This document shows, piece by piece, positions 30,070-61,660 of a stretch of 64,000 nt of DNA; position 1 is the first letter of the stretch; each line of letters starts with the position of its first letter. Source of the stretch: Verrucomicrobiaceae bacterium (GTDB lineage Bacteria > Verrucomicrobiota > Verrucomicrobiia > Verrucomicrobiales > Verrucomicrobiaceae); contig JAEUHN010000051.1 in assembly GCA_016795365.1 (NCBI GenBank), positions 62,001 through 126,000 on the forward strand, in the 5' to 3' direction. The notes below the pieces were generated by a model. The model saw only the letters and a program-made list of their open reading frames with translations, made no database searches and was not told where the DNA came from. The position numbers and the translations under genes were made by a program.

Positions 30070-30107
30070 GCGAAGACAGCACCTCACTCCGTATGCAGGG
30101 CTCCACC

Positions 30108-33100
30108 ATGCGCCTTGCATTCCCCTTTCTGCTGCTCACCTCGCTCCCCCTTCTCGCCCAGGACCTCCCGCGACTCCAAGAGCCCTGGCAATCGGGCTAC
30201 ACCAAAGAAGACTCCACCGGCGCTCACGTGCTCGGCCACTGGACTTTCGATGGCGAGTCCGCGCTGAAGGACGCCTCCGGCAAAGGCAATGACCTGACTC
30301 TTCAAGGCGCTGTGCTCGTTGAGAAAGGCAAGTCCGGTGGAGGCCTCGAATCCTTCCCGGGCTTCCCGGTCGAGGACAAGCCGCACGGGGCACGAACCGC
30401 AGCCAAGCCCAAGCTCACGCCCAGAGGTGCCTTTACCATCGAGATGTGGATCAAGCTCAAGCTGGACACCGATCCTCGCCTCCGGCCTTACCTGCTGGAC
30501 AAGAAGTATGTCGATCACACCGACTACCAATGGCAGCTCACGGAGCCGAGCAAAACGGGGCAGCGGCGCATGTCCGTGAATCTCGGCTTTGGCAATGAGT
30601 CGCGGCTCTTCCACTCTGATCCGCTCACGATCAAACCCGGCACCTGGCATCACGTGGCCTTCACTTATGATGCGGCAGGTCAGGTGCGGTTCTTCCTGGA
30701 TGGCTCTACGGCGGGAGGCTTGAAGCAGAATGGTCTTGGCCCCATCACGCCTGGAGTGAAAGCCCTCAGCATTGGCGATCGTCTCGGTAGCAATCATGGA
30801 GGCTTTCCCGGCTTCATCGATGAGGTCCGCATCTGTGATGGCATCATGAACTTCGAACCTGTGGTGATGCAGATCAAAGCCAGCCGTCACGTCTGGCGAC
30901 GCATGGAGACGGCCCGCCCCATCGAGGTGAAGGTGACCAATCTCCAGCGCTCCACGATGGAAGGCGCGAAGCTCCGTCTCTCGCTCGCCAATCAGGAACA
31001 AGCCTTCGATGTGCCTGCACTTAAATCGGGCAAGAGCTTCACCGCCACGGCCACGCTGAACCCCTCGCTCAAACCCGATCACTACCCTTTGCGGGCTCGC
31101 CTCGAACTCAACGGCACGACCACCACGCAGACCGAAGATTTCCAGATCGTGCCCCGTCCCCTGCCCTCCACCATGCCCGTGATCATGTGGGGCTCGAGTC
31201 CTGACGACACGGCGCAACTCAAGGACATCGGCTTCACCCATTGCCTGGGTCTCCGCGTTGATGTGGGTTCGGTCTGGGAGGCCAGGAAACCCGTGCCTCC
31301 AGGCAAGCCGGAACTCATCGAGAGCAATCGCCGGATGCTGGATCAAGCACTGGCCGATGGGATCAACGTGGTCGCCAGTCTGTCGCCCGCGAACATGTTC
31401 GAGCACGACGACAAGATGGCCCGCGTCGATCGCAACGGCAAGCCTTACACTCGTCGCGACATCTGCGCCTCTCTGCCCGAGCTGCCTCCGTTCTTTGAGA
31501 ACGTGGGACGCTCCGTCGCACAAACTTACGGCGACATGCCCGCTCTCAGCGCAGCCTTAATCGACACCGAAGTGCGCGATGCCTCCCAGCCTTCGTTCAA
31601 TGCCGTCGATGTGGAGAACTATCGCAAGTTCGCCAACGCCGACATCCCTGCGGAGGTCGTCACGCGCGGTGGAGTGGACTACACGAAGCTCAAGGACTTC
31701 CCCCAGGATCGTGTGATCGCGGATGATCATCCGATCCTCAACTACTACCGCTGGTTCTGGACCACAGGCGATGGATGGAACGCCCTGCACTCAGCGCTCA
31801 GCCGTGGTGTGAAAGGCGGCAGCAACCGGCTGTGGACGTGGTTTGATCCTGCCGTTCGTCAGCCCTCGATCAGCGGCGCCGGCGGCAGCGTGGATGTGCT
31901 CTCGCACTGGACCTACACCTACCCCGATCCACAGCGCATCGGCCTCTGCGCGGATCAGCTCTTTGCCATGAGCGCTGCCAGCGGTCGCAATCAAAAGGTG
32001 ATGAAGATGACTCAGCTCATCTGGTATCGCTCGCAGACGGCCCCCATCGGGCAGAAGGCCCCTGGTGACGTAGTCGCCTGGCAGGATCACGATCCTGATG
32101 CAGCCTACATCACCATCGCGCCCATGCATCTGCGCGAGGCCCTGTGGACCAAGATTGCACGCCCCATCCAGGGCATCATGTATCATGGCTGGCAGTCGCT
32201 CGTCGATGATCCCAACAGCACCAGCAGCTACAGGTTTACCAATCCCAACACCGCGCCTGTGCTCAAGCAATTGATCCACGAGGTCATCCAGCCCCTGGGA
32301 CCCACCTTGGTGCAGATCCCCGATGAACGGAGTGAAGTCGCGTTCTTCGAGAGCTTCACCTCGCAGATGTTCGCACGTCGTGGTGGCTACGGCAGCAACA
32401 TGAGTTGGGCCACCGATGTCTGGCTAGCGTTGCAACATGCGCATGTGCAGTGCGATGTGCTCTTCGAGGAAACATTGCTCAAGTCCGGGCTCAACGGACG
32501 TCGCTTTCTCGTGATGCCGGAGTGCGATGTGCTCACCAAGAGCGTCGTCGAAAAGATTGCAGCCTGGCAGAAGAAGGGCGGCAAGATCATCGCCGATGAG
32601 TTCCTCTGCCTAGGTCTCAAGGCGGACCTCGTGCTGCCCAGCTTCAAGCGAGTTAAGAAAGCCGATGCCGACAAGGCCAAAGTGATCGAACTCGCGCAGT
32701 CGATGAGCCCTCAGCTCACCACGATCGGACTGACGCCAAAGATCGTATGCGACAATCCCGAGATCATCGTGCGCACGCGACGCTACGGCGATGCGATCTA
32801 CGTCTTCGCCATCAATGACAAGCGCGAGTATGGCAACTACGTCGGCCAGCATGGGCTCGTGATGGAGAACGGCGCACCGGCCAGTGGCACGATCACACTC
32901 ACCACGGACGCCGCGAACATCTATGATCTCAATCGCTCGTCCCTGGTGCTGCCCACGCTCGGGGAAGGCAAGGCCAGTTGGAAGGTGGACCTCGGACCCT
33001 GCGATGGTCGCCTCTTCATGGTGGTTCCCCGTCCCGTGATGCAACTCAAGGCCGATGTGCCTGAGATCGCGAAGTGCGGCAACGCAATCACCGTTGCGCT

Positions 33101-33335
33101 CGAAGTGACTGACACCAAGTCAGCTTCCGTCAGCGCCGTCATCCCGATGCAGTTGCAGGTGCGCGATGCGAATGGCAAGACCGCCGAGGGCTCGGGCTAC
33201 TATGGAGCCAAAGATGGCAAGCTGACCGTGAAGCTCGACATCGCCACCAACGATGACCCCGGCACCTGGCAGATCGACATCCGCGAACTCGCGTCACGGA
33301 TGGAGGTGACGAAGTTCGTTCGTGTGGAAAAGTAG
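30108..33335 (+). CDS. Large secreted LamG-domain protein with TIM-barrel-like glycosidase region
   Basis: The protein has 1075 residues from ATG 30108 (signal peptide MRLAFPFLLLTSLPLLAQ); an ATG five codons upstream is also possible. Residues about 40-260 form a LamG/concanavalin-like module (GHWTFDGESALKDASGKGNDL, GAFTIEMWIKL, TWHHVAFTYD, GFIDEVRICDG). Residues about 265-350 look like an Ig-type sandwich. Residues about 355-860 have the alternating beta/alpha pattern of a TIM barrel plus a Rossmann-like part (FLVMPECDVLTKSVVEKIAAWQKKGGKII), reminiscent of GH42-type beta-galactosidases. The last 150 residues are beta-sandwich. Catalytic residues cannot be assigned. The next gene starts 4 bp downstream. 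Confidence 0.75.
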   Translation: MRLAFPFLLLTSLPLLAQDLPRLQEPWQSGYTKEDSTGAHVLGHWTFDGESALKDASGKGNDLTLQGAVLVEKGKSGGGLESFPGFPVEDKPHGARTAAKPKLTPRGAFTIEMWIKLKLDTDPRLRPYLLDKKYVDHTDYQWQLTEPSKTGQRRMSVNLGFGNESRLFHSDPLTIKPGTWHHVAFTYDAAGQVRFFLDGSTAGGLKQNGLGPITPGVKALSIGDRLGSNHGGFPGFIDEVRICDGIMNFEPVVMQIKASRHVWRRMETARPIEVKVTNLQRSTMEGAKLRLSLANQEQAFDVPALKSGKSFTATATLNPSLKPDHYPLRARLELNGTTTTQTEDFQIVPRPLPSTMPVIMWGSSPDDTAQLKDIGFTHCLGLRVDVGSVWEARKPVPPGKPELIESNRRMLDQALADGINVVASLSPANMFEHDDKMARVDRNGKPYTRRDICASLPELPPFFENVGRSVAQTYGDMPALSAALIDTEVRDASQPSFNAVDVENYRKFANADIPAEVVTRGGVDYTKLKDFPQDRVIADDHPILNYYRWFWTTGDGWNALHSALSRGVKGGSNRLWTWFDPAVRQPSISGAGGSVDVLSHWTYTYPDPQRIGLCADQLFAMSAASGRNQKVMKMTQLIWYRSQTAPIGQKAPGDVVAWQDHDPDAAYITIAPMHLREALWTKIARPIQGIMYHGWQSLVDDPNSTSSYRFTNPNTAPVLKQLIHEVIQPLGPTLVQIPDERSEVAFFESFTSQMFARRGGYGSNMSWATDVWLALQHAHVQCDVLFEETLLKSGLNGRRFLVMPECDVLTKSVVEKIAAWQKKGGKIIADEFLCLGLKADLVLPSFKRVKKADADKAKVIELAQSMSPQLTTIGLTPKIVCDNPEIIVRTRRYGDAIYVFAINDKREYGNYVGQHGLVMENGAPASGTITLTTDAANIYDLNRSSLVLPTLGEGKASWKVDLGPCDGRLFMVVPRPVMQLKADVPEIAKCGNAITVALEVTDTKSASVSAVIPMQLQVRDANGKTAEGSGYYGAKDGKLTVKLDIATNDDPGTWQIDIRELASRMEVTKFVRVEK

Positions 33336-33339
33336 CGCC

Positions 33340-34101
33340 ATGAAGCTCTACGCCGTCCAGCACGACATCCTATGGGAAGACAAGCCCGCCAACTTCGAAA
33401 GAGTGGCGTCCATGCTTGCGAAGGCGAGCCCCACGCCTGGATCGTTGATCGTGCTGGAAGAGATGTTTGCCACCGGCTTCACGAAGAACCTTGGCGCCAC
33501 ACGCGAAGCTGCGGCTGGTGAAACCGAAGCCTTTCTCCGCGACCTCGCACTTCGTTACCAATGCTGCGTCATCGGTGGGCTCGTCGGCTGTGGAGCCAGT
33601 GACAAGGGCCGCAATGAATCCCTCGCCATTGCACCCGATGGCACGGAGCTGGGACGTTACGTCAAGATGCAGCCCTTCTCGGCAGGCGAAGAACACCTGG
33701 TGCATGAAGCAGGCAACCAAGTCGTCACCTTTGAGTTCGGAGGCTTCAAGATTGCACCGTTCGTGTGCTATGATCTTCGCTTCCCCGAGCTCGCCCGCGA
33801 CTCGGTGAAGCAAGGAGCCGATCTCATCATCTACATCGCCAGCTGGCCGATCAAACGCGCCCAGCACTGGGTCACCCTGCTCCAGGCCCGCGCGATCGAG
33901 AACCTCGCCTGGGTGGTGGGAGTCAACCGCTGCGGCACCGATCCCAGCTTCACGTATCCCGGTCGCACGATGGTCGTTGATCCCCACGGGAACATCATCG
34001 CTGATGCGGCTGATCGCGAAGGCGTGCTTGAGGCCGCGCTCGATCCCGCCATCGCAAGCCAATGGCGCGCGGACTTCCCGGCTCTGCGGGACATGCGATA
34101 G
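33340..34101 (+). CDS. Carbon-nitrogen hydrolase, omega-amidase (YafV/Nit2) type
   Basis: This 253-residue nitrilase-superfamily enzyme has the Glu-Lys-Cys triad: Glu in LIVLEEMFATGF, Lys in GRYVKMQPFSAGEEH and Cys in APFVCYDLRFPELAR. This KMQPF/CYDLRFP pattern is that of omega-amidases, which hydrolyse alpha-ketoglutaramate or alpha-ketosuccinamate. ATG 33340 (MKLYAVQHDI) is the family start and follows the stop of the upstream secreted protein by 4 bp. It converges on the amidohydrolase-aminotransferase fusion gene with 7 bp between stops. Omega-amidases often partner transaminases, which makes this neighbour suggestive. Confidence 0.9.
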   Translation: MKLYAVQHDILWEDKPANFERVASMLAKASPTPGSLIVLEEMFATGFTKNLGATREAAAGETEAFLRDLALRYQCCVIGGLVGCGASDKGRNESLAIAPDGTELGRYVKMQPFSAGEEHLVHEAGNQVVTFEFGGFKIAPFVCYDLRFPELARDSVKQGADLIIYIASWPIKRAQHWVTLLQARAIENLAWVVGVNRCGTDPSFTYPGRTMVVDPHGNIIADAADREGVLEAALDPAIASQWRADFPALRDMR

Positions 34102-34108
34102 CCCACGA

Positions 34109-36430
34109 TCACACGAGGCGTGCGAATCCCTGCTGGACATCGCCCACGCCCGACTCCGCCTTCAGCGCTCCGCGCTCCTGCGTCTTCACCACTTCAGCGA
34201 GTGAATCATCCAAGGCCTCAAGCATGTGACCGATGATCGCCTCACGATGCGGCCAGGTCACGTAGAGCTGGCTGGACATGAGGAATCCACGCTGAAGCAT
34301 GTGCCGGATCATGAGCGCCTTGGCGGCTGCGGTTTCATCACCAAGACCGAAGGCCAAGGACGGTGCGCATGGCATGGAGCCGATCTTGAGTTGCAGCGAA
34401 GGATGCCGTGCCGCCACCTCGCGAAGCCCCGCCTGGAGCTTCTCACCGAGCGACCACACGTGCTGCTGCACTCCCTCACGCTTCATCTTGTTGATGCATG
34501 CCAGCGAAGCCGCCGTGCCCACACCATCGGTCCAGTAGCTGCTCGAAATGAAGCTGTCGTTCGCCGCATCCATGATCGCAGCTTTGCCAACGATCGCACC
34601 ACTCGGATAGCCATTGGACATCGCCTTGGCATACACCACCACATCGGGCTCGATGCCGAGCTCCGGAGCCGCACCTGGGAAGCCGAAGCGCCAGCCGCTT
34701 GTCACTTCATCGAGCACAAACACCGCGCCAGCAGCGCGGCAAGCCTCGATGACTTGCTGCATGAATCCATCGCGCGGGAACTCGCTGCGCATGGGCTCCA
34801 TCACCACGGCAGCCAGCTTGCCATCAAGCTTCTGCAATGCGGCACGGAAGGACTCGATGTCATTGTAACGAAACGGCACCGCCGTGCCTGCGAGTTCGCG
34901 CGGCACACCGAGAGGTTGCAGGCCCGGCAGCAAATGACCATCAAGCGCCGCGTCGTTGCTGAGGTTCGCCGCGAGATACCAATCACTCCATCCATGGTAA
35001 CCGCAGAAGGCGACGCCGCTCCTACCCGTGGCAGCACGCGCAATGCGCACAGCCAGCCCCAGCGCCTCACCACCGCCGCGCGCGTAGCGGACCTTGCCCG
35101 CCCATGGATGCAGATCGAGCAAGGTGTCCGCCAAGTTCACTTCATCCGGCGAGGCCAGCGTTGCATAACTGCCAAGGTTCACCCGCCGCTTCACCGCCGC
35201 GTTTACTTCGTCATCTGCATGACCCAGAAAAATCGCACCCACGCCTCCGGTGAAGTCGGTGTATCGACGATCACCGAGATCCCAAATGTCACACCCTTTG
35301 GCCCGTGAGAAATACGAAGGCCACGACTGCGGATCAAACAAGTGTGCACGCTTCGATAGCAGCCCCGTGCCACACGAGATCTTCGTCTTCGCCTCGGACC
35401 ACAGCTCGGGACCTCGTGCGCCTTTGGTCGCGGCTCCCAGATGCGGAGCCAGCAGACGCAGCGCGTTATCGCAGAAGATGTCCTTCAAATCCGACTCGTT
35501 CATCCCTGTGTCCTCACATGCCTCGCGCAGGCACATCAGCGACTCGATCCCCACGAGCGTGTAGTCGCCGAAGATGGTGAGTTTATCCCCGGTGATCTCG
35601 GGATGAATCCACGTGAAGCCATCGCCTTGCGTGATGCAGGAGCCGCGCAGTTCACTGACCATGTAGTCGCTGCCCCACAGCACACGACGCGGCCCAAGGA
35701 TCTCAATCGCCGCACGAAACGCCCCGGCTTGCGTCACCGCCGAGGTGTCCACCACCACGTTGTCGAGATCGACGAGATGATGCAGTCCCTCGCGTGCATG
35801 ACGGTAGTTGAACGACCGCGCCACATGCGCCAGCACCAGACGGCAGCGAGGATACTTCCTGCACAGCCGTCGCAGTGCCTCCACATTGCGCGGGTCCGTC
35901 ATGCCATCGGCCAGCATGATGTGCAGCACCATGATGCCATCATGCTCGTGACAAACCTCCCACATCCACTCTGGAGCAAAGGACTCGATCTCCGCCTCCT
36001 TGGTGTCCGGCACATTGGCGTAGAGTCGATACGGTTTGATGCCGACAAACACACCCGTGCTGATCAATCGGCGCACCTCCGCCGGATCATCGGTCGGAGC
36101 CGCCAGCACCAGCGCACGTGAGTGGGTGCTCATGTCGATCTGCGACTGCACCCACGCGTTCTCACCCGCGCGATCATTGCCTGCGCTCGGGTAGCCAAAG
36201 AACAAGCCCTCAACCTTCCGTCCTGGCATCCATCGGCTCATCGCTTCATCAAAGTCACGCCGTCCGTAACCACGATCCGCATCGAGAAACACCGGGCGCT
36301 TGCCTTCGGCAAAGTGCTTCGTGTGATACAAGTGCGTATGAGCATCGAAGATTCGCTCCGGCACGAAGCCGTCGATGCAGCGATGAAGCAGGGCGCGATC
36401 CTTGTCGGTGAGTTCGGTGACGAGTTTCAT
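34109..36430 (-). CDS. Bifunctional fusion: amidohydrolase-2 domain plus class-III PLP aminotransferase/aminomutase domain
   Basis: This 773-residue protein has no stop or frameshift between its modules. Residues about 1-325 are an amidohydrolase TIM barrel: metal motif FDAHTHLYHT (His31, His33), LVLAHVARSFNYRH, and terminal WGSDYMV with a likely metal Asp. Residues about 360-755 match class-III aminotransferases of the glutamate-1-semialdehyde aminomutase type: KGCDIWDLGDRRYTDFTGGVGAIFLGHADDEV, FCGYHGWSDWY, FVLDEVTSGWRFG and the PLP lysine Lys602 in YAKAMSNGYPSGAIVG. Both active sites look intact. The combination suggests an amidohydrolase and transamination reaction acting in sequence on one compound; the substrate is unknown. 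It is not the haem-pathway HemL itself. Confidence 0.88.
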   Translation of the reverse strand: MKLVTELTDKDRALLHRCIDGFVPERIFDAHTHLYHTKHFAEGKRPVFLDADRGYGRRDFDEAMSRWMPGRKVEGLFFGYPSAGNDRAGENAWVQSQIDMSTHSRALVLAAPTDDPAEVRRLISTGVFVGIKPYRLYANVPDTKEAEIESFAPEWMWEVCHEHDGIMVLHIMLADGMTDPRNVEALRRLCRKYPRCRLVLAHVARSFNYRHAREGLHHLVDLDNVVVDTSAVTQAGAFRAAIEILGPRRVLWGSDYMVSELRGSCITQGDGFTWIHPEITGDKLTIFGDYTLVGIESLMCLREACEDTGMNESDLKDIFCDNALRLLAPHLGAATKGARGPELWSEAKTKISCGTGLLSKRAHLFDPQSWPSYFSRAKGCDIWDLGDRRYTDFTGGVGAIFLGHADDEVNAAVKRRVNLGSYATLASPDEVNLADTLLDLHPWAGKVRYARGGGEALGLAVRIARAATGRSGVAFCGYHGWSDWYLAANLSNDAALDGHLLPGLQPLGVPRELAGTAVPFRYNDIESFRAALQKLDGKLAAVVMEPMRSEFPRDGFMQQVIEACRAAGAVFVLDEVTSGWRFGFPGAAPELGIEPDVVVYAKAMSNGYPSGAIVGKAAIMDAANDSFISSSYWTDGVGTAASLACINKMKREGVQQHVWSLGEKLQAGLREVAARHPSLQLKIGSMPCAPSLAFGLGDETAAAKALMIRHMLQRGFLMSSQLYVTWPHREAIIGHMLEALDDSLAEVVKTQERGALKAESGVGDVQQGFARLV

Positions 36431-39633: not shown

Positions 39634-42600
39634 TTAGAGTTTAAGGCGGTAGAAGACGGTGGGCAGTGGAGCCGCGTTATCGACGAAGTTGATGACCCCT
39701 TGTCGAGTAGCCAAGGCGGTGCCGATATCATCCCACTTCGCAAGGTTGGTGGAGCGCTGGATCGTGTAGGTTCTGTTGGGCAGACCTGAGAAGGTCAGGC
39801 TGATCTTGGCGGTCGTTCCCGTGACGGATTCGATAGTCAACTGAGGGGGGTTCTTCGGATTCAGCGCGGGGTCCTGGGTCACTGTCACGGTGATCGTGCC
39901 GAGGGTAACAGCGACGCCATCCGTGATTTCGACTTGGAACGTATCGACACCGATCAAATCCACCGGTGGACTGTAGAGTATGTTCGCCTTGTCGGTCATC
40001 GTCAGCGTAGCCCCCGAGACGCTCGTGGCTGAGGGCAGCTTGCCGACGCTCAGAGCATCGCCGTTGGCATCACTCGCATTGGCCAGAATCTTGGCGAAAG
40101 CGATCTCGGCTGGCACGCCCTGAACGGTGGCAATGGTGAGTCCGCTGAAGCTCGGAGGAGAGTTCGCGACCACCGTGCCGGTGACAGGGAAGGTGAAGAG
40201 ACTCTGAACGGGATCGTTGGTGGTAATGGTCACCGGTCCGCTGAAGGTGCCCAGCGTATCCGCCTTGAGCTTGATGGTGAGTGTGGCGGACGCGCCGGCT
40301 GCCACCGAACTCGGGTTGGAGACGATTTGGTAACCGGTGGGCACGGTGACGTTGCTGATGGTCAGCGGACCGTTGCCCAGATTGTTGATGAGGTAACTCT
40401 TGCTCACCCCCGAGGTGCCCACTCGCGGCGTGCCGTAGCTAATGGCCGTCGCCTGGCCATTGATCAGCACGGGTGAGGTGGCGGTGCTGCCGTTGCGCAC
40501 TACGATGGAAGGCTCATGCGTGACGGAGCCGATGAGCTTCACCACGACGAAGTCGTAGTTGTTGATGCCCGTGGTGAATGCATAGCCGCCGATGTAGATA
40601 TCACCTTCGGCATCAATCAATACCTTCTGAGCGCTGGCGGCACCACCGAGCGGAAGGATCACTTTGCCTTGCGTTCCGAAGCTCAAATCCACCTCTCCTG
40701 TTGGAGTGTAACGCAGGACAACCCACTCGCCTCCAGCCTGACCGGCCACTACCAGTTTGCCATCCGCCTGCACCGCCACACTGAAGGCTTGTTCGCTATT
40801 GGTTGTCGGAGAGACATCTTCAATTGTGCTGCCCGTCCCATTGAACGTAGTGTCCTTCGCTCCCGAGGATAGAGCACGCCCGACGATGAACCCGTGGCCA
40901 ATCGATGGAACCAAGAGACTGCCACGCCGCGCTGAGAACACAGGCTTGCCGTCGGCTTGCAATGCCAGAGCGGTTGCGACCTCGCTCTTTCCACCGCCAA
41001 CATCAGTGGGATAACCGCCGGGTGCCGCGTATGGTTGGATCTGAACAGAATGTGATGTGCCTGCATCATTAACCTTCCAGAGTCCGATGTGGTTGATGGT
41101 TGAGGTGTCACTGCCTGCCGAGTAAATGTCCCCGGCTGCATTGGTGACTATGGCGCCTCCATAACCGCTGACACTAAGTGGCTGGGTTCCACCAATGCCA
41201 AAGCTGACATCAACCTCTCCGTTCGAACCGAAACGTCGAACGTAACCTCTGCGAAAACCTGAACTGGTGAGTTGCGTGCCCGCCAACAGGAGCTTGTTGC
41301 TCGGGTTCACGACGATGTGCCCTGTGCTGTCACCCAATGTCAAATCACCATCAATCACACGACCCTTGACACCGAAGATGGGGTCCAGCCCGCCGTCGGG
41401 AAGATATCGGATCAAGGCAAAACCCGGCAGACTCACCTGATCGAGACCACCGCTGTTTCGACGAGTGCCAGCAGCTACGATGTTATGCCCTTGCAAACAG
41501 ATGCCGGTTATACGGGCAGCGCCCAGTTCTGGCACGTCAGTGAGCACTTTCCCTCCGTTCCCAAAGCTGGCATCCAGTGCGCCATCACTCTTCAAGCAGG
41601 CCAGCGCAAAACGTCCGGTGCCCGCGTCGGAGTCAAAGTTCTCGCCAGCCAGCACGATCCTCCCGTCATCCAACCTCAGCATGTCGAAAGCGAAGTCACT
41701 GTTACCAAAGTCCACCCTCACCACGCCATTGGTGCCAAAGCGCGGATCGAAGCTGCCAACCGGGATCGACAACACCTCTCCCGTCACGGGGAACTCAAAC
41801 ACGGGATTGGCGCTGTCGTTGGTGGTGATCGTCACATTGCCGCTATTCGTTCCCAGCGTCAGGGCATCCAACTGCACGCTGAAGGTAGCTGTGCCCTGGG
41901 CCGGGATCGGCTCGGTCGGAGCGCCCAACACCTCGTAGCCGTCCGGGACGTCGATGTTGCTCACCGTCAGCGGCAGGGCGCGGACGTTGTTGATCGTGAA
42001 GCTATGCGTCACGGAGATGCCCAGCGGCGTCGGACCGTAGTCCACCGCCTGCGCTTGATTGTCCGCCAGTCGCTCATAACCCGTCTCACCGCCTTCGTGA
42101 GCAATGATCACCTGTGGCGACGTGACCTCGAAGATATAGGCGGCTCCGGAGTTTTGGGTGGCAGTATTGTCGCCTCCATTGCCGTTGATGCCCCTAGCGG
42201 CGCTGTCTTCATTGGAAGCACCGGCGACCACTAAATTGTCTCCGATAGCTACTGACAAGCCAAAGAAGTCCCCTTGGCCCGTGTTCGATGCCTTCAAATA
42301 GGCCTGCTGAGACCACGCTCCGCCGCTGCGCTGGAAGACATAGGCAGCGCCAGAGTTTACGCCCACAGCGTTACCGATCCCATCGCCGTTGATTCCTACT
42401 TCTGGACTAGATTCCCCAACTGCGCCGACAACAAGCGATTCATTGGAGATCGAGACCGCGTAGCCAAATTGCGATGTTCCTGCCAAACCTGTGTTCGATG
42501 CTTTCAGGTAGGCCTGCTGAGACCACACAACCCCGCTACGCTGATAAACATAGGCGGCACCAGTATTTCCGCCGCGATTGTTGTTGGCGTCGCCATTGAC

Positions 42601-48450: not shown

Positions 48451-48766
48451 CAGTCTCTTCTTTCCCGCGGTCGAAAGTGTGTGGCAAAATTGGACCAAAT
48501 TTGTCGTGAAGGGCTCACACGTCACAGCGGCAACTGGTGACGGATGAACTGCGCCGAGCACCCGAAAACGGATGTTGCGAGGGAGTCGAAACACTAGCTG
48601 GAGCATGGTTCTTGTATTCATGGCGCATCAGGGGAGAGAGGGATCGTGGACAGCGGAGAAGTGGAAGGATGGCGGGACCCGAGTCGGGCGCTGAGGAGCC
48701 ATGAGCAGGCATGGCGCTGGGCGAAGGGAATGAGTCGGGGTGTGGTGAAAGGGACCTGGGACGACA
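48451..48766. other. 316-bp gene-free leader between the LuxR-type gene and the giant gene
   Basis: This is probably the promoter and leader of the giant gene. A purine-rich ribosome-site candidate (GAAAGAAGAG) lies just before its ATG. I see no convincing -35/-10 pair, no strong hairpin and no supported small gene. Confidence 0.5.
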
Positions 48767-53415: not shown

Positions 53416-54155
53416 ACGCCAAACAAATGCTTCATCTCCGCATCGACTTCGGATGGATCAGCCACGGTCATCTCCACTTGCGCACGCACACCATGACGAA
53501 ATCGCCTCCGCAAGCGATGCACCGCCACGGCGAAGGCCTGTGGCGTGAGACCGATCGGACCGCACACACTCGCGTAGCCATCCTCACCCGAATCCGCGGT
53601 TAAATACGGCTCCAAGGCCTTGAAGACGTCGCTGCGGCCCGATGCGGTGTATTCCTCGCGCAAGCTGGCCAGCGCGCGGTCCATAAGGATGAGCGCCCAG
53701 TTCTGATCGAAGGCTTCCCCTGGGCTCAACGAGGGTGAGGCAACCTCCCGGAACCAGGTCTCGCCCTCGTCGGTATTCAATGACAGCGGCATCTCGCCCG
53801 CGCCGCGCTTCTGGGCGTTGCGATCACGCCAATGGTCCGCGATCAGATGATCCAGCGCCGCGAGCAGGAAGGAGCGGAACCTTCCCCGCGATTGATCCGC
53901 ACGACCGAAAGACTGCCGCCGAAGCAGGCGCGCAAAGAAGTCCTGCGTGAGATCTTGGGCATCCGCCGATGAATAGCCACGCCTGCGCAGCTCGCCGTAA
54001 ACCGGCTTCCAGTAAGCACGGCAAAGGTCACCGATGGCCTGCTCCGCGCCTGCGTCATCTTTGGCCAGGGCAAGGAGCGACCATCGCGTGGCGGGAAACG
54101 CACCGGCACGGGAGGAAGAGTTTTCGGATCGCTCAATCCTGGGAGAGTCAGGCAT
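53412..54155 (-). CDS. ECF-type RNA polymerase sigma factor (planctomycete/verrucomicrobial class)
   Basis: The protein has 247 residues from ATG 54155 (MPDSPRIERSEN); an ATG at 54197 adds 14 residues. The PATRWSLL start and AYWKPVYGELRRRGYSSADAQDLTQDFFARLL (region 2) are typical of the PVC-group ECF family. The region-4 HTH is near the end (SVCGPIGLTPQAFAVAVHRLRRRFRHGVRAQV). Its stop overlaps the kinase start by ATGA, so the two are translationally coupled. No anti-sigma factor is adjacent; the kinase is the likely controller, as known for ECF-kinase pairs. Confidence 0.92.
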   Translation of the reverse strand: MPDSPRIERSENSSSRAGAFPATRWSLLALAKDDAGAEQAIGDLCRAYWKPVYGELRRRGYSSADAQDLTQDFFARLLRRQSFGRADQSRGRFRSFLLAALDHLIADHWRDRNAQKRGAGEMPLSLNTDEGETWFREVASPSLSPGEAFDQNWALILMDRALASLREEYTASGRSDVFKALEPYLTADSGEDGYASVCGPIGLTPQAFAVAVHRLRRRFRHGVRAQVEMTVADPSEVDAEMKHLFGV

Positions 54156-54222
54156 GTGCTTACGCTGGCGAGGTCTCTGCATTTTGACAAGGCTCATCCA
54201 TTGAGCCCCCTGACACCGAACC

Positions 54223-55731
54223 CTATCTCACATAGACCGCATAAAGCTTAGCCGCGCTCTTCGTTGCAAAGTTCACGCGCAGAACGATGCGCTTGTCTTG
54301 CGGCAACGGCTTCGACCACGCGATGGTTTGATGCAGGCCCCTTTGTGTCACGGTCGCGGTGTAGCCATCGAGAGGATGATCGAGGTGGTCGAGCAACTGC
54401 ACGTTCAGCGGTGAGGCGTCGCTTACGCCATCAACGTTGAGCGCGATCTCGCTGGCGATGAAGGGGCTGGTGACGACGTGCGCGTCGTTGTCCTCCACCT
54501 TGGGAGAGAGGTAGCCGAAGCCATCGCGGCGCAGCGTAGCGAGGCCGATGTCCATGTGCTCAAGCACGCCGCCGGTGTCCCAGTGCGAATACCAGATCAT
54601 GGTCTTGTCGCCTTCATTCACAAAGGCGTGGCCTTGCAGGATCGCCACGTCGTCCCACTCGCCGTCTTTGCCGCGCGGGATCATTTTGAAGCCGGGAACG
54701 GGTTCCCGGAAGTGCACGCCGTCGTTGCTGATCACGAGGCCGAGATCGACATGCACACCGTAGTTCCAGCTCTTGCCTTTCGGGGGCGGTTGCTCAGCAT
54801 CCTGCCACAGACCATTGAGGCCGACGAGCACATTGCCACGGTTCCAGATGCCCGCGCCCATGTGACCTTGCTGGCCTTTCACTGGCGGCTCGGCGAGCTG
54901 CCCAGTGCGGGCAAGCGAGAGTGCTTTGGCTTGCGACCAATTCACGAAGTCCGGCGAACGATACGCCAGCGTCACGCGACCCACATCACTGCCGTCCGCA
55001 CGCCAAGCCCAGGGCGAGAGCAACTGACCCGTGGTGTAGTAGAAGTCGCCAAAGCGATACAGGCCGCTGACCTCGAAGCGCTCGCCACCTGCGTTCGCGG
55101 GACGATCCCCAACGCACTTCCACGTCAGTCCATCCGCGCTGGTCGCGGTGATGGTTGCGCCCCATCGTTTTTCATTGGGACCGATCTTGCTACGCCCACC
55201 CTTCACGTCCTCGATGGGCATGTGGGCGATGAAGGCGCACTTGTAGCGTTTGGTCGCGTCGGGCTCGTTCGGTTCGTAGAGCACGGAGAGGAAGTCGTTC
55301 ACGCGCGTCATCGAGTGCACCTCGCTCTCGATGAGGCAGATGTTGTTCTTCTTGCTGCCATTGAACTCCATGAGGCCCAGCTCTGGCTTCGTCCAGTTCA
55401 CGCCGTCCTTGCTCTCGGCGTAGCACATCGGTCGCCACCAGCCCGGCGCCTGGCCTTTGACAATCTCTTTCTCCACCATGCCGAGATACCACATGCGGAA
55501 GGTGTCGCCGGTCTTCAGCACGGTGCCGTAAAGAATCGCGTGCCCCGCATCAGCAGAGCTCGGCGGACCGCTGCGCAGCACCGGATTGGCAGGATGCTTC
55601 GTGGCTGGCACGAGCGTGAGCTTGAGATTGTGCTGCCACGCGAGATTGACGTCGTCAAAAGCGAAGAAAGTCTGCTCCGCCGCATGGACATGCAGCGCAA
55701 AAAGGGCCATGAGGCAGAGACGAAGATTCAT
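54223..55731 (-). CDS. Secreted five-bladed propeller protein (GH43/GH32-like), paralogue A
   Basis: The protein has 502 residues from ATG 55731 (signal peptide MNLRLCLMALFALHVHA). Blade-like repeats are MWYLGMVEKEI, YAESKDGVNWTKPELGLMEFNGSKKNN, AYRSPDFVNWSQAK, NRGNVLVGLNGLW and LVISNDGVHFREP. The arrangement follows glycoside hydrolase clan GH-F/J-type propellers. A C-terminal beta-sandwich follows from about residue 400. Catalytic residues could not be assigned. It is a paralogue of the next gene upstream, sharing NRGNVL, DGEWD and LSNDG stretches. Confidence 0.8.
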   Translation of the reverse strand: MNLRLCLMALFALHVHAAEQTFFAFDDVNLAWQHNLKLTLVPATKHPANPVLRSGPPSSADAGHAILYGTVLKTGDTFRMWYLGMVEKEIVKGQAPGWWRPMCYAESKDGVNWTKPELGLMEFNGSKKNNICLIESEVHSMTRVNDFLSVLYEPNEPDATKRYKCAFIAHMPIEDVKGGRSKIGPNEKRWGATITATSADGLTWKCVGDRPANAGGERFEVSGLYRFGDFYYTTGQLLSPWAWRADGSDVGRVTLAYRSPDFVNWSQAKALSLARTGQLAEPPVKGQQGHMGAGIWNRGNVLVGLNGLWQDAEQPPPKGKSWNYGVHVDLGLVISNDGVHFREPVPGFKMIPRGKDGEWDDVAILQGHAFVNEGDKTMIWYSHWDTGGVLEHMDIGLATLRRDGFGYLSPKVEDNDAHVVTSPFIASEIALNVDGVSDASPLNVQLLDHLDHPLDGYTATVTQRGLHQTIAWSKPLPQDKRIVLRVNFATKSAAKLYAVYVR

Positions 55732-55776
55732 GACTCGATTGTGATCCCCTGGCACGTGGCTACCAGCGCAACATCT

Positions 55777-55795
55777 TGGTCCGTTAAGCGGACCA
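55777..55795. promoter_or_regulatory. 7-bp stem-loop between the two propeller genes
   Basis: TGGTCCG and CGGACCA flank TTAAG. It lies 46 bp upstream of the paralogue A start and about 50 bp after the paralogue B stop. It could be an operator or an RNA stabiliser; there is no T-tract for a classical terminator. Confidence 0.35.
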
Positions 55796-55844
55796 GAAAC
55801 TGAACTGGTGCGCGCCTATGCGAGCAGAGCCACCATCAAATCGG

Positions 55845-57392
55845 TCATTGCCCTTCGGCAATGTAGATCGCGCTGAGCCGAATGTCCGAGCGTTTCTCCC
55901 CATCAAAAACAAGTCGCAGCCGCACCTTGTCGGGCAGCTTCAGATGGGGGGCCATCTCGATCGGCACCTGAAAGCCGCTTTGACGAACAAGAGTCTCTGA
56001 CCCAGGAATCGGCTGTTCACGAGCATCAAGCAATTCGACCTGCAACTCGGCTTGTTCACCGAGCCCCACCGCATTGACAAAGAAGCGAGGTCTCGTGATC
56101 GGAATCGCGGCTGTGATCAGTTCCGCCGTGACGCGAGGCAATTGATAGTCTCCTGGACCTTCATTGGACAAGTCCACGCGGAGATCACCAAAGCGATCCC
56201 GTGGCAGCATCGCGATGCCCACGCCACCACGTTTCACCTCGGGGCCGCCTGTGGCTCTAGGATCCCACGCGCCATAATACACGAAGGTCTGCTCACCGAT
56301 GTTCTCGAAGCCCTGCCCTTGAATCACGCCGCCCTGATCCCATTCGCCGTCCTTGCCTCGCTCCAGGAAGGTCCACTCGTGGAGTGGCTCACGAAAGTTC
56401 TCACCATCGTTGCTGAGCACCAAACCGAGATCGACGGACACGTCTTTCCACTCAGCAGCTCCATGCCAGCGACCTGAAATGCCGAGCAGGACATTGCCGC
56501 GATTCCACACGGCGATCCCCTCGTGGTTCTGCTCACCCTCCCGACTTCGCCCCGCTCCAAGGTATTCAAACTGTGCAGTGCGAACAAACGCGAGAGTGCT
56601 CGTAGCAGACCAGTTCACAAAGTCCGCGCTGCGGTGGAGTCGCACCACGCGGCCCTGATAATGATAGGTCGAGGGCATGGCGTTCTGAGCCGTCAGGACA
56701 TACTGACCTCCCCACTGGTAGAGTCCACAGGCAGGCTCCAAGTGAAAGCCCGGCACCAACAGATCCTCTCGGCGCAGTTCACCTTTTAGCGGTTTCACTT
56801 CCTTGACCGGACGCCATCTCAACCCATCGACGCTCACGAAAGGCAGCAGCGTGCCCAGCCTCGTATGGTGACGAAAATAGACATGCGTGACCATCTTGTA
56901 TCGCCTTGAAGGATCGGGGTCAGCCTCGTCTTTGATCACCTTCAAGTTCACAAAGCCCCAGTCGCCGTCGACATCGACGAGGTTGTTTTCCTTGCTGCCT
57001 CGAAACTCCACCAAGCCCAGGCGAGGCTTCACCCAATGAACCCCGTCCGTGCTCTCCGCATAAGCCGCCCGCCAGCGCGTGGACGGAGCTTTGCTCCTCA
57101 CCTCGTCATCGAAGGCGACATACCACATGCGATACCTGGCCCCATCTTTGATGATCGAGCCGTAAAACTGGACACCATGCGCATCGGGTGATCCCGGTTC
57201 ACCACGCTGCAACACGGGATTCATCGGATGCCGCTCGGGCTGTCGCATCTCCAGCCGGAGGTTCTGCGTGTGAGGAATGGCAACGTTATCGAAGGCAAAC
57301 AAGGTCACCGCCTTGCTCTCATCGAATAGCTCGCCCGCTCTGAGGCTGGCCATGGCTATGACGATGGAGAGAGCGAGGTGGTAGCCGTTCAT
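55845..57392 (-). CDS. Secreted five-bladed propeller protein (GH43/GH32-like), paralogue B
   Basis: The protein has 515 residues from ATG 57392 (signal peptide MNGYHLALSIVIAMASLRA). The frame runs open to 57638, but the extra residues are not signal-like and are rejected. Shared blades with paralogue A include RMWYVAFDD, YAESTDGVHWVKPRLGLVEFRGSKENN, SADFVNWSA, NRGNVLLGISGRW and LSNDGENFREP. The C-terminus is a beta-sandwich. It is probably secreted and acts on glycans, by context only. An aldo/keto reductase lies upstream on the same strand. Confidence 0.82.
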   Translation of the reverse strand: MNGYHLALSIVIAMASLRAGELFDESKAVTLFAFDNVAIPHTQNLRLEMRQPERHPMNPVLQRGEPGSPDAHGVQFYGSIIKDGARYRMWYVAFDDEVRSKAPSTRWRAAYAESTDGVHWVKPRLGLVEFRGSKENNLVDVDGDWGFVNLKVIKDEADPDPSRRYKMVTHVYFRHHTRLGTLLPFVSVDGLRWRPVKEVKPLKGELRREDLLVPGFHLEPACGLYQWGGQYVLTAQNAMPSTYHYQGRVVRLHRSADFVNWSATSTLAFVRTAQFEYLGAGRSREGEQNHEGIAVWNRGNVLLGISGRWHGAAEWKDVSVDLGLVLSNDGENFREPLHEWTFLERGKDGEWDQGGVIQGQGFENIGEQTFVYYGAWDPRATGGPEVKRGGVGIAMLPRDRFGDLRVDLSNEGPGDYQLPRVTAELITAAIPITRPRFFVNAVGLGEQAELQVELLDAREQPIPGSETLVRQSGFQVPIEMAPHLKLPDKVRLRLVFDGEKRSDIRLSAIYIAEGQ

Positions 57393-57519
57393 AGGGGAGG
57401 ACAGTCTTTTCGATTCAATCCCGGACGATCGCAATTTGAATGAAAGCGATGACCGAAATGACCAGAACTTCACCCAAGACGACTCAGAGTTGAGCAGATC
57501 CGAACGCATCGAACAGGAC

Positions 57520-58353
57520 TTACCGAAACACCTCAAGCATCTCAGCCATAACCTCTTCATCACCGAACTCGCTCGCCGCAATAGCTTGATCCAGATGCGC
57601 AGGCGAACGTCCACCGACGAGCACTGTGTCAATGCCACGCTGGTGCAATGCCCATGCTAGCGCCAGGTGGGTCTGCGAATGTCCCGTGCGCATCGCGATG
57701 GCTTCGAGCTTGGCAAGACGTTGGTAGGCCGACTCGTGGAAATACACCTGCTGATGACCGGGAATGATCTCGAAGCGTGAGCCTGCTTGAACGCCGCTTT
57801 GATGCTTGCCGGTCAGAAACCCAGCGCCCAACGGACTATAGGTAACGATGGCGATGCTATTCGCAGCACAGTGACAGCGCAGTTCAGCACTCACATCGCT
57901 CACAGCGAGGTTGTGATTGTTTTGAACGACGCTGAAGCGAGAGCCCGCGGAGCGCAGTTGATCGAGTGAAACGTTGCTGACGCCCAGCTTCCTGACCAAG
58001 CCTTTGCTCACCAGAGCATCGAGCGTCGATCCGCAATGAAGAGCCGTCTCATGCCATTGATGCAGGTAGAGCAGATCGATTTGTTCAAGGCCCAGCCGGT
58101 CCAAATTGGGACGAATGTCGATGCGATCATACGGAGGCAGCACCTTGGTCGCGATGATGATGCTCTCGGGTCTTCGCGAGGCGAGCCATCGACCGAGGAT
58201 GGCTTCGGAAGCTCCGCCACCATAGGCTGCTGCGGTGTCGAAGTGCCGAACGCCTCGCTCATAGGCATGATCAAGCAGGGCGAAGGACGCAGCTTCATCA
58301 ATCTCTCGTCCGAAGGTGACACAACCGAGTCCGATCTGAGGTGAGTGGATCAT
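57520..58353 (-). CDS. Aldo/keto reductase
   Basis: This 277-residue TIM-barrel oxidoreductase is NADPH-dependent by family. The tetrad is visible: Asp and Tyr in RHFDTAAAYGGGASE, Lys in IATKVLPP and His in DLLYLHQWHE. The cofactor-binding end includes VLVGGRSPAHLDQAI. ATG 58353 (MIHSPQIGLGCVTFG) is chosen from a longer open frame because the family starts at LGLGT-like residues. It is divergent from the next propeller gene, sharing a 163-bp promoter region. Confidence 0.92.
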   Translation of the reverse strand: MIHSPQIGLGCVTFGREIDEAASFALLDHAYERGVRHFDTAAAYGGGASEAILGRWLASRRPESIIIATKVLPPYDRIDIRPNLDRLGLEQIDLLYLHQWHETALHCGSTLDALVSKGLVRKLGVSNVSLDQLRSAGSRFSVVQNNHNLAVSDVSAELRCHCAANSIAIVTYSPLGAGFLTGKHQSGVQAGSRFEIIPGHQQVYFHESAYQRLAKLEAIAMRTGHSQTHLALAWALHQRGIDTVLVGGRSPAHLDQAIAASEFGDEEVMAEMLEVFR

Positions 58354-58516: not shown

Positions 58517-59989
58517 ATGAAACGCATCGCCCTCCTCCTCGCCCTTGGTTGCACGCTCCAGGCTGCTGACCCGATCAACATCGGCAGCCGCCGCGAGCTG
58601 TTCGTGGATCGATTTCTCATCGATACCCTCAGCCGCACAGAACTGCGACTTCAGACTCCCCGTGACGAAGGTGTGGCGTTCAATTTCGACAAGCCATGGG
58701 AAGGTCTCTTCAGCGGCTATGCAACGATCATGACGCTCGAAGATGGAAGCCTGCGCGCCTACTATCGTGGCAAGGCCGTGGCGAACAAAGATGGCAGCGA
58801 GGAAGAACTCACTTGCTGTGCGGAGTCCACGGATGGCCGCACCTGGACCAAGCCAGAGCTGGGCATCTATGAAGTGATGGGCACCAAACAAAACAATGTG
58901 GTGCTAATGAAGGCGAACCAAGCCACGCACAACCTCAGCCCCTTCCGCGATCTGCATCCGGGAGTGCCTGCGGACGGACGCTTCAAAGCGCTCGGCGGCA
59001 CGATGCAGGGAGGTGGTTTGTTCGCCTGGAAATCGCCCGACGGCTATCGCTGGCAGAAGATGACGGAAGCGGCGGTGATCACACAGGCGATGGTTCCGTT
59101 CAAATACATGTTCGACTCGCAGAACGTGCCGTTTTGGTCCGAGGCGGAGGGCAAGTATGTGGCCTACTATCGCGTGTTCGAGGGCGGCATTCGTCGCATT
59201 GTGCGCAGTGAGAGCACGGACTTCCTGAAGTGGTCGGCACCGGTGCTGATGGAGTATCGCAATCCCGAGATGGAAGCTCCGATCGAGCATCTCTACACCA
59301 ATCAAACCCACGCCTACTTCCGCGCTCCGCATCTCTATGTGTCCATCGCGGCGCGCTTCATGCCGAAACGTCAGGTGCTCACCGAAGCGCAGGCGAAGGC
59401 GATCAATGTCAATCCCGGCTACTTCAAGGACACCTCGGACGCCATCTTCATGACCACGCGTCCGATTGAGGGCAAGGAGCATCTCGGCCATTACGACCGC
59501 ACCTTTTTGGAAGGCTTCATCAAGGGCGGCATCGGCGCGCAGAACTGGGTCTCGCGCACCAACTACCCAGCGCTCAACGTGGTGCCGACAGGTCCCAACG
59601 AGATGTCCGTCTTCGTGAATCAAGACTACGCCCAGCCCACCGCCCACCTGCGTCGCTACTCACTGCGCACCGATGGCTTCGCGTCCTTGCACTGTCCGTA
59701 TGCAGGCGGTCATGCCATCACGAAGCCGTTCATCTTCGAAGGTCGTGAGCTGTCGCTCAACTTCTCCACGTCCGCTGCTGGTGGTGTGAAGATCGGCTTT
59801 GAAGATGCCGAAGGCAAAGCGATCCCCGGCTTCTCCATCGACGATGCGGTGACGCAAATCGGCAATGAGATTGATCGTCGTGTGAGCTGGAAATCCGGCA
59901 CCGATGTCAGCTCGCTCGCTGGCAAACCCGTCCGCCTGCGGATCTCAATGAAGGACGCCGACATCTTCTCCTTCCAGTTCACAAAGTAG
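58517..59989 (+). CDS. Secreted propeller protein (GH43/GH32-like), third copy
   Basis: The protein has 490 residues with a signal peptide (MKRIALLLALGCTLQAA). It follows the same scheme as the two minus-strand paralogues: INIGSRRELFVDRFLID, ATIMTLEDGSLRAYYRG, CAESTDGRTWTKPELGIYEV, SESTDFLKWSAP and a terminal beta-sandwich (VSWKSGTDVSSLAGKPVRLRISMKDADIFSFQF). Identity to the others is low. Its substrate is unknown. The SGNH esterase gene starts 3 bp after its stop, so they form an operon. Confidence 0.82.
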   Translation: MKRIALLLALGCTLQAADPINIGSRRELFVDRFLIDTLSRTELRLQTPRDEGVAFNFDKPWEGLFSGYATIMTLEDGSLRAYYRGKAVANKDGSEEELTCCAESTDGRTWTKPELGIYEVMGTKQNNVVLMKANQATHNLSPFRDLHPGVPADGRFKALGGTMQGGGLFAWKSPDGYRWQKMTEAAVITQAMVPFKYMFDSQNVPFWSEAEGKYVAYYRVFEGGIRRIVRSESTDFLKWSAPVLMEYRNPEMEAPIEHLYTNQTHAYFRAPHLYVSIAARFMPKRQVLTEAQAKAINVNPGYFKDTSDAIFMTTRPIEGKEHLGHYDRTFLEGFIKGGIGAQNWVSRTNYPALNVVPTGPNEMSVFVNQDYAQPTAHLRRYSLRTDGFASLHCPYAGGHAITKPFIFEGRELSLNFSTSAAGGVKIGFEDAEGKAIPGFSIDDAVTQIGNEIDRRVSWKSGTDVSSLAGKPVRLRISMKDADIFSFQFTK

Positions 59990-59992
59990 TCC

Positions 59993-61660
59993 ATGAAGCC
60001 TCTCCTGTGTCTCGCGGGCATCAGCCTTGCGGCCTTCATTCACGCAGCCGAAACGCAACCCATCGTCGGCATCTGGCTGATGGGGCAGTCGCTCTGCGAT
60101 GGCTCGGAGTCGCTACCGCTGGTGACGCCTAAAGACACGGGGTTTGGCAACTACGCGTTCAAACGTGGAGTGCGGACCTGGTTGCCCAAGGACAACTCAT
60201 TGACGCCAGAGAAGCGACCCGAGGAGCAGTCCGCGTTGGTGCCGCTGACAGCGCAAGCCAATGGCGGTCTCGGTGAGACCGTCGCGAATGGTTTGGCAGA
60301 TCATCTGTCGTCTGCACTGCGGTCTGACAACAAGCCGGTGCCGCATCATCTCGTTGCCTGCGCCGGGCAAGGTGGTCGCCAGATTCAGGAACTCTCCCGT
60401 GCGGATCTCTCCAACGATCCACGCACGCCCGACAGCCGGAAGCATGGTGGCGGCTACTTCCTCACGAGTCTGGACGATGCACGACGTGCCATGCAGCAGG
60501 CGAAGTCGCTCGGCACCACGTTCCGCATCGGTGCGCTGTATTGGATGCAAGGCGAAGGCAACGGTGGCCCCACGGGCGGCATCATGCCCACGCGATGGGA
60601 TGCGGAGTTGCCGCGTAGGGAGGGACTCGCGTGGTATCGTGATCAACTCATCGCCTATCGCAAGCAGTGGTCGGCTGATCTTTGCTCGATCACAGGTCAG
60701 ACCGGTGAGTTGCCCATGTTCGTCTATCAAACCCTCGGCCCCGCGGGCGATGCCCAACTCATGGCCGCAGATGCTGATCCGCACATTCACATGGTGGGGC
60801 CGCACTATGCCGTGCCGAGTGCGATCAACAGCTTGTATCCGCCTGCTCGTCACGGTGATCCCATTCACCTGTCCGCCGATGGCGAACGCTGGTGGGGCGA
60901 GCAGGTCGGCAAGGTGATGCACCGTGTGCTGCATCGCGGTGAACGGTGGCAACCATTGCGTCCGAAGAGCGCGAAGCTCGATGCGACTCGCGACAGCGTG
61001 CTCATCGAGTTCACCGTGCCGCGTCCGCCACTTTTCGTGGACACCACGTTTCTTGCCCAACAAGAGATTGCCACCAACGGAGGCTTCTCATCACTCGCAG
61101 GTTTTCAGGTGCGCGACAAATCGGGCCAGGCCCTCACACTGGTCAGTGTCGAGGTGGCAGACTCAACGACCTTGCGTCTTCGCCTCGCGAAACCCGTAGC
61201 ATCCGGTCAGACCTGCAAGATCAGCTATGGTCATCCTTACACCACCGCCCTCGGCAGCATCGCCGCCTTGCGCCCAGGTCCCGAAACCAAGGGCCAGGCC
61301 ACGGAAGAGATGGTGCTCACGAAGAGTGCTGCCAAGGCCTTGAAGCCGTTGGTGGACGAAGGTGCCTTCCTGGTCACCAACACCACCGGCACCAATACTC
61401 GTGCTCCCGTGCGTTGGATCAGCGAAGAGAAGGGCGTGACCGTGCTGCGTTACGAAACTCGGGAGTTGCGCAACAAGGTCCCCTTTGCCATCGGCCAGAC
61501 CGTGGTCGCCCAGCGCTCCTTCAGCTACGGCAACATCCGCGACTCCGATCCCGAGCCCTCTACGCATACCTTTGCCGATGCCGGCTATGGCACTCGTGTG
61601 GGCAAGCCGTATCCGCTATGGAACTGGTGCGTGCTGTTCTCGGATCTTCCTGCCAACTGA
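59993..61660 (+). CDS. Secreted SGNH hydrolase of the SASA/sialate O-acetylesterase type
   Basis: The protein has 555 residues with a signal peptide (MKPLLCLAGISLAAFIHAA). SGNH motifs are IWLMGQSLCDG (Ser in block I), GALYWMQGEGNG (block III-like) and GDPIHLSADGERWW (the Asp/His block). These match sialate O-acetylesterase-like carbohydrate esterases. The C-terminal 200 residues form beta-sandwich modules (SLAGFQVRDKSGQALTLVSVEVAD). With the propeller gene just before it, it probably deacylates a glycan. Confidence 0.85.
   Translation: MKPLLCLAGISLAAFIHAAETQPIVGIWLMGQSLCDGSESLPLVTPKDTGFGNYAFKRGVRTWLPKDNSLTPEKRPEEQSALVPLTAQANGGLGETVANGLADHLSSALRSDNKPVPHHLVACAGQGGRQIQELSRADLSNDPRTPDSRKHGGGYFLTSLDDARRAMQQAKSLGTTFRIGALYWMQGEGNGGPTGGIMPTRWDAELPRREGLAWYRDQLIAYRKQWSADLCSITGQTGELPMFVYQTLGPAGDAQLMAADADPHIHMVGPHYAVPSAINSLYPPARHGDPIHLSADGERWWGEQVGKVMHRVLHRGERWQPLRPKSAKLDATRDSVLIEFTVPRPPLFVDTTFLAQQEIATNGGFSSLAGFQVRDKSGQALTLVSVEVADSTTLRLRLAKPVASGQTCKISYGHPYTTALGSIAALRPGPETKGQATEEMVLTKSAAKALKPLVDEGAFLVTNTTGTNTRAPVRWISEEKGVTVLRYETRELRNKVPFAIGQTVVAQRSFSYGNIRDSDPEPSTHTFADAGYGTRVGKPYPLWNWCVLFSDLPAN

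Follow-up and report, generated by a model that had tools for sequence, protein, structure and literature searches.

A conserved fusion of an Amidohydro_2 hydrolase with a class III aminotransferase, and its proposed role in the breakdown of an amino nonulosonic sugar

Introduction

Sialic-acid-like sugars, such as pseudaminic acid, legionaminic acid and their 8-amino forms, coat many microbes, and the catabolism of sialic acid itself involves aldol cleavage of a nine-carbon 2-keto-3-deoxy sugar acid. A hydrolase that acts ahead of a class III transaminase is known from fumonisin degradation, where FumD, a carboxylesterase on a separate protein, is followed by the deaminating transaminase FumI, an aminopentol aminotransferase; the substrate there is a long-chain aminopentol. 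In PigE a class III aminotransferase domain likewise lies C-terminally in a longer protein, but its N-terminal half is not known to be Amidohydro_2 and its pathway is prodigiosin synthesis. Sialic acid catabolism (NanA, NanE and NanK) is the subject of PMC2693436, and EpaA (CTP_transf_3/SpsF-like plus AKR) and EpaB (SDR) of Acinetobacter prophages are reported to turn pseudaminic acid (Pse) into 8-epi-Pse (PMC12053666). Also reported are an SpsF-AKR fusion within a Pse cluster of Vibrionaceae/Moritella (PMC7371886) and 8-amino-3,5,7,8,9-pentadeoxynonulosonic acid in the O-polysaccharide of Flexibacter maritimus (PMC3210612). Our searches of open-access literature turned up no catabolic route for pseudaminic-type sugars.

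Here we analyse a gene from a 64,000-nucleotide stretch of a Verrucomicrobiaceae genome (the window) that joins a metal-dependent hydrolase to a PLP enzyme. FumI is the nearest fold of its aminotransferase half, which shares its subfamily with aminotransferases from Pse operons; the latter, however, are free-standing or fused to an SpsF-like part and lie in biosynthetic operons (PseB/C/G/I) with an AKR alongside, whereas the window protein is joined to a hydrolase and the loci of the fusion hold an aldolase and a symporter. The AKR and SDR families of EpaA and EpaB are also found beside the aminotransferases studied here, although EpaA and EpaB work with no aminotransferase and their outcome is 8-epimerisation. 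Compared with the NanA route, the usual aldolase family is HpaI and a transaminase step is added. We propose, with chances that we judge to be about even, that the fusion combines two enzymatic functions in the catabolism of a nonulosonic sugar with an extra acylated amine, likeliest at C-8. If this is true, the 'unknown compound' of the preliminary description becomes a named, testable one, the fusion would be a searchable genomic marker of organisms feeding on such coats, a role would be available for a large 'GSA aminomutase-like' subfamily otherwise annotated as class III enzymes only, and candidate enzymes to remove or remodel these sugars would be at hand.

Results and Discussion

The fusion gene and its distribution

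The gene (34109..36430, - strand) starts with ATG and runs for 773 codons with no internal stops. Residues 29-327 of the product match Pfam Amidohydro_2 (PF04909; 71.7 bits, gathering cut-off 26.4) and residues 373-676 match the class III aminotransferase family Aminotran_3 (PF00202; 139 bits against 30.5); the joining of a hydrolase to a PLP enzyme, as the preliminary description had it, is thus real, with one ORF carrying both domains above cut-off. The 773-residue protein divides into an N-terminal metal-hydrolase half (residues 1-332; 35435..36430, -), with an HxH at 31/33, K132, H170, H202 and D255, and a C-terminal PLP-enzyme half (residues 333-773; 34109..35434, -), in which K602, D574, E545 and Y478 are invariant. 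His31, His33 and Lys602 had been correctly named, the two histidines lying within DAHTH and the lysine within YAKAMSNG. The predicted structure of the full fusion protein had a pLDDT of 83.7 and a pTM of 0.76. The gene is single-copy in its own genome (self match E = 0), and the remaining matches there are ordinary class III aminotransferases of 26-31% identity.

H31, H33 and K602 were each present in 88 of 89 alignment rows, the remaining row having a gap; the window gene counts twice in this alignment, as WIN and as L001, and the contigs of L007 and L052 are equally long. We also assembled a diverse set of 34 of the 37 fusions with less than 80% identity, or nearly so, leaving out L072, L074 and L115. 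D29, H31, H33, K132, H170, H202, D255 and K602 are invariant throughout this set and both Pfam domains were recognised in all 34 members, which agrees with the earlier statement that both active sites are intact. In a sample of 387 genomes of the phylum, 9 hold the full fusion and 30 more carry the aminotransferase alone, a count from which two genomes with weaker matches (G134 and G139) were excluded. From named genomes we retained 80 further relatives, nearly all full length. Many are from Verrucomicrobiota (e.g. Prosthecobacter and Brevifollis gellanilyticus) and many from Planctomycetota (e.g. Gimesia and Candidatus Laterigemmans); Lentisphaerota contributed one record and Arenibacter two species. 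The domain-architecture survey that had been called for therefore finds a family architecture across several phyla, and this spread, together with the invariant catalytic residues, disproves both a chance fusion in a single strain and a decayed active site. The fusion is a new, conserved architecture built from known domains.

An aminotransferase subfamily shared with Pse operons

In a tree of the aminotransferases, which used the same 34 fusions (L072, L074 and L115 omitted), 60 of the 62 rows lie on one side of a branch marked 100* and two outgroup rows on the other, placing the window enzyme within the subfamily. The aminotransferases of Pse operons are 36-46% identical to the window half. 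Eighty-five positions are near-invariant and identical in the 34 fusion and 21 Pse aminotransferases, and 39 of these differ in the outgroup, whereas a single position separates the two groups, W580 in the fusions against F in the Pse enzymes. R361 is arginine in 33 of the 34 fusions and in 21 of 21 biosynthetic aminotransferases. The 85 shared positions and the single separating one are as expected for two groups whose substrates are identical or closely alike, and a common substrate class is well supported.

The fusions form several separate clades beside the Pse rows and no single clade of their own; the fused and stand-alone states need 5-6 label changes, as estimated by a quick method on a tree with many open forks. 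The Arenibacter fusion groups with the Verrucomicrobiota fusions and apart from the stand-alone aminotransferases of the family to which Arenibacter belongs, which suggests transfer. One locus (L123) has a breakdown-type context, yet its aminotransferase lies inside the Pse clade, and this mismatch suggests that the chemistry is exchangeable. Eight other stand-alone rows of the tree come from neither a biosynthesis nor a breakdown setting.

The biosynthetic context is seen in the Pseudosulfitobacter plasmid pSMR1-1, where the aminotransferase (WP_089422657) lies in the order pseB-pseC-AKR-GNAT-AT-pseG-pseI, and on a Halorussus plasmid, where it is near NeuB, DegT, GNAT and an SpsF-like gene that bears a glycosyltransferase annotation. 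In the family of Arenibacter the subfamily is present in 11 of 397 genomes: as the fusion in one, and as a stand-alone enzyme in ten, with NeuB in the operon in all ten and PseB, PseC and an AKR in nine. PseB, PseC, PseG and PseI all score above their NCBIfam cut-offs in one such operon. The ten Pse operons also hold an FMT (5/10) or a second type of GNAT (6/10), and at least two acyl- or formyl-transferase matches were found in 8/10, one of them (L262) weak. The extra transferases would fit acylation of a third amine, although they may instead serve formylation at N-7. A second architecture of these aminotransferases, 675-689 residues long with an N-terminal SpsF-like (CTP_transf_3) part, was seen in Pse operons (L157:8269-10302, L124:8677-10704 and L255:8036, the SpsF part of the last being deduced from length).

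Gene neighbourhoods of the fusion

The subfamily also occurs in a second context, taken to be one of breakdown. Five loci (L144-L148) hold the hydrolase and the aminotransferase as split genes, and in one of them (L144) hydrolase, aminotransferase, MocA, SDR, HpaI, SDR and AKR follow in a row; the aminotransferase frame of L145 was missed by the ORF caller and comes from the genome scan. The free hydrolases of these loci are 28-30% identical to the window N-terminal half over its length. Genomes with a strong hydrolase match carry the aminotransferase in 22 of 24 cases, against 17 of 363 others, and when the fusion genomes are set aside the halves still co-occur, with the aminotransferase in 13 of 15 hydrolase genomes (Fisher p ~3e-14, uncorrected for relatedness). 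The hydrolase stands without the aminotransferase in G061 and G139, and in the latter (L132) it lies, by eye, beside an AKR, an SDR and a DHDPS/NanA-like gene.

We compared the fusion loci of at least 10 kb (68 of 88, with L052 and L143, whose contigs are equally long, probably the same region) to 40 control stretches placed by position in four Verrucomicrobiota genomes; related species were unthinned and the profiles were built from the same fusion neighbourhoods. The fusion loci resemble the split-gene context: an SDR was found near the fusion in 30/68 loci, a sodium:solute symporter (SSS) in 28/68, an HpaI-type aldolase in 21/68 and a NanM-like protein in 12/68, each against 0/40 controls, and PhyH in 11/68 against 1/40. 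The prop5 proteins, of about 500 residues, secreted-looking and with no Pfam match, are also enriched (28/68 against 0/40); they occur in the window (54223-59989) and in 31 loci, and we regard them as a candidate new family of glycosidases. MocA13 was found in just 8/68 loci, and there was no enrichment of AKR (4/68 against 1/40) or of BNR (5/68 against 2/40), so the latter was left out as evidence. The 12 'Pse' loci in this comparison were picked by their NeuB/SpsF/PseC context, and their counts of these genes reflect that selection. In a PDB sequence search the HpaI neighbour hit aldolases of the HpcH/HpaI kind. For Arenibacter, the BNR protein near the fusion (L079:4011-5264) is closely related to the solved but uncharacterised 5hx0 (580 bits), and its sialidase matches are weak. 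The Pseudosulfitobacter AKR is just 26-32% identical to the AKRs of breakdown-type loci.

A proposed route

A link of the fusion to nonulosonic-acid chemistry is well supported by these contexts, and from the neighbourhoods we infer a catabolic role. Since EpaA and EpaB invert C-8, AKR and SDR enzymes in such clusters can act at this carbon, and an aminotransferase added to that chemistry would give an 8-amino sugar, of which that of Flexibacter maritimus is a known case. C-8 as the carbon acted on is moderately supported by this analogy, and the most likely candidate sugar is 8-amino-3,5,7,8,9-pentadeoxynonulosonic acid, of the 8-amino pseudaminic type. A search of phage records for EpaA-like AKR and SDR returned distant, generic matches only, and a literature search found no Tenacibaculum maritimum O-antigen cluster with an aminotransferase.

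The biosynthetic order would be to oxidise C-8, aminate, acylate and link, which, reversed, becomes deacylate, deaminate, reduce and cleave. On this reading, which is inferred as to substrate, carbon, the chemistry of each half and the direction and sequence of the steps, the route would run as follows. Secreted glycosidase- and esterase-like proteins would release the sugar and the sodium:solute symporter would import it; the N-terminal metal hydrolase would take off an N-acyl or N-formyl group; the fused class III aminotransferase would transfer the released amine to a keto acid, so that an 8-ketone results; this ketone would be reduced by SDR, AKR or Gfo/Idh/MocA enzymes; and the HpaI-type aldolase would, by family analogy, cleave the 2-keto-3-deoxy acid to give pyruvate and a fragment of six carbons. 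As the fusion would hold the first two intracellular steps, the freed amine could pass straight to the PLP site. No dehydratase gene was noticed by eye in the operon maps, in keeping with a substrate that has the 2-keto-3-deoxy form from the start. Against the scheme count the uneven enrichment of HpaI, MocA13, AKR and BNR, the placement of the MocA pair and the best HpaI on other contigs of this genome, the two genomes that have the hydrolase but no aminotransferase, the low identity of the Pseudosulfitobacter AKR to those of breakdown-type loci, and the mixed character of L123. It is conceivable, though we hold it tentatively and with more doubt than belief, that these loci represent a widespread, undescribed breakdown of 8-amino (pseudaminic-type) nonulosonic acids from bacterial surfaces, marked by a fused deacylase-transaminase, with HpaI replacing NanA and prop5 proteins as candidate glycosidases. 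Amino-acid derivatives, lactams and ureido compounds had been put forward as substrates for assay; the gene context points instead to a nonulosonic sugar.

The hydrolase half

Modelled alone, the hydrolase half gave a pLDDT of 93.9 and a pTM of 0.93 and forms a TIM-barrel of the Amidohydro_2 kind. H31, H33, K132, H170, H202 and D255 do not vary across 40 aligned rows, six of them stand-alone homologues, and from what is known of the amidohydrolase superfamily we take them to be metal ligands. Three solved folds are tied as nearest, the COG3618 amidohydrolases 4do7 (Z 21.9, rmsd 3.2 over 251 aligned residues) and 4dlf (21.5) and LigI (4d8l, 21.2), a 2-pyrone-4,6-dicarboxylate lactonase; they are followed at Z 18.4-20.8 by decarboxylases (IDCase, gamma-resorcylate and ACMSD), the hydratase LigJ and LigY. 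A profile search of PDB sequences with this half found faint relatives only (best E 1.9e-5), and a plasmid search with it returned no match. The term 'amidohydrolase' of the preliminary description is not to be taken literally, as these neighbours are lactonases, decarboxylases, hydratases and a C-C hydrolase; with such varied reactions the name says little about the bond that is cut. We know of no amide hydrolase among the nearest Amidohydro_2 folds, which makes the deacylase step the weakest part of the scheme. The hydrolase half is probably a deacylase that frees the acylated amine, though this reaction is weakly supported.

The main rival to a deacylase is a lactonase, in which the same nonulosonate route is followed and the N-terminal half opens a lactone, or acts on an aldonolactone made by SDR or MocA enzymes after aldol cleavage. 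The best folds are those of COG3618 and LigI (Z 21-22) and dehydrogenases are frequent neighbours of the fusion, but identity to the solved lactonases is 13-16%, and fused enzymes usually catalyse neighbouring steps, so a freed amine links the two halves more directly. Moreover, a second Amidohydro_2 protein (AH9), near the fusion in 16/68 loci against 0/40 controls, could fill the lactonase role; a PDB sequence search with AH9 gave no useful relative. We consider a lactonase unlikely, if still a serious candidate. The decarboxylases, the hydratase and the C-C hydrolase are known to act on aromatic or unsaturated acids, and although their closeness in fold would allow the N-terminal half to be any of the three, with the keto compound made by the aminotransferase as its substrate, the neighbourhoods bear no signs of aromatic or unsaturated acids and we regard this as improbable.

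The reaction of the PLP half

For the aminotransferase half the nearest fold is FumI (6hbv; Z 41.1, rmsd 2.3, 400 aligned residues), which also came first in Foldseek. The preliminary description left room for an aminomutase, in which the amine would be moved instead of removed as in GSA aminomutase. Among named NCBIfam models the best matches are indeed GSA aminomutases, as are many of the close folds, and R361 lies, by eye, at what we take to be the substrate-arginine place of GSAM; however, all GSAM equivalog scores are far under their cut-offs (185.5 bits against 527.3 for the HemL model TIGR00713 and 219 against 486 in NCBIfam), so the half does not belong to the GSA aminomutase equivalog, the top fold is an aminotransferase, and the Pse-context relatives accompany an AKR, which fits amination of a ketone. 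An aminomutase is therefore very improbable. From the earlier suggestion that an amide is opened and its amine moved or removed, we keep amide hydrolysis followed by removal of the amine as the preferred reading, and the moving of the amine is disfavoured.

That the fusion serves the biosynthesis or modification of a surface sugar, as its subfamily, seen here chiefly in Pse biosynthesis operons, might imply, is just as doubtful, as NeuB and SpsF were found in 0/68 fusion loci, which are thus not Pse biosynthetic operons and contain the symporter, the HpaI aldolase and secreted proteins instead.

Neighbours in the window and in the same genome

A nitrilase-family gene (CN_hydrolase; 33322..34101, +) is, as had been described, convergent to the fusion, with 7 bases between the stops. 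Its proposed link to the fusion as an omega-amidase is not supported: of 153 loci searched, only L036 holds a match to the nitrilase, and the fusion there is 96% identical; the best NCBIfam score of the nitrilase, 170.5 bits, lies under the cut-off of 249. We rejected it as a pathway partner and judge it a local neighbour outside the system. Upstream of it in the window lies a secreted-looking LamG protein of 1080 residues (30093..33335, +) with homologues near the fusion in 8/153 loci, for which a PDB sequence search gave no useful relative.

The 54-62 kb part of the window encodes proteins whose close orthologues in sister species are secreted proteins flanking the fusion. The prop5/c3 protein (54223..55755, -; 510 residues, secreted-looking) has no Pfam match, and its orthologues, with ~75-79% identity, adjoin the fusion in other Verrucomicrobiaceae. 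A second protein of the prop5/c3 type (55845..57638, -) and one of the prop5/c5 type (58517..59989, +) also have no Pfam match; the latter has matches in 22/153 loci, several above 80% identity, and no useful relative in a PDB sequence search. Next to it a SASA-like protein (59993..61660, +) resembles the sialic-acid-specific acetylesterase family below threshold (E 0.038) and has homologues in 11/153 loci, mostly near the fusion. The window AKR (57520-58638) was ruled out as the pathway AKR, with matches in 0/153 loci at 1e-15.

Elsewhere in the same genome, the MocA pair is represented by adjacent orthologues (74% and 61%) on contig 3 and the best HpaI (66%) is on contig 22; with its genes on several contigs, the route looks present but scattered. 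An HpaI aldolase paralogue and a PhyH dioxygenase lie side by side (L197:7607-9166) on the contig of the window, ~6-7 kb past its right end. Between the fusion and the prop5 genes, inspection by eye revealed a secreted-looking protein of 2995 residues with many repeats (39634-48621, -) and a serine/threonine-kinase-like protein of 1391 residues (49240-53415, -) with what seem to be two C-terminal repeats of the formylglycine-generating-enzyme type, and a sigma-factor-like gene (53412-54197) adjoins the latter.
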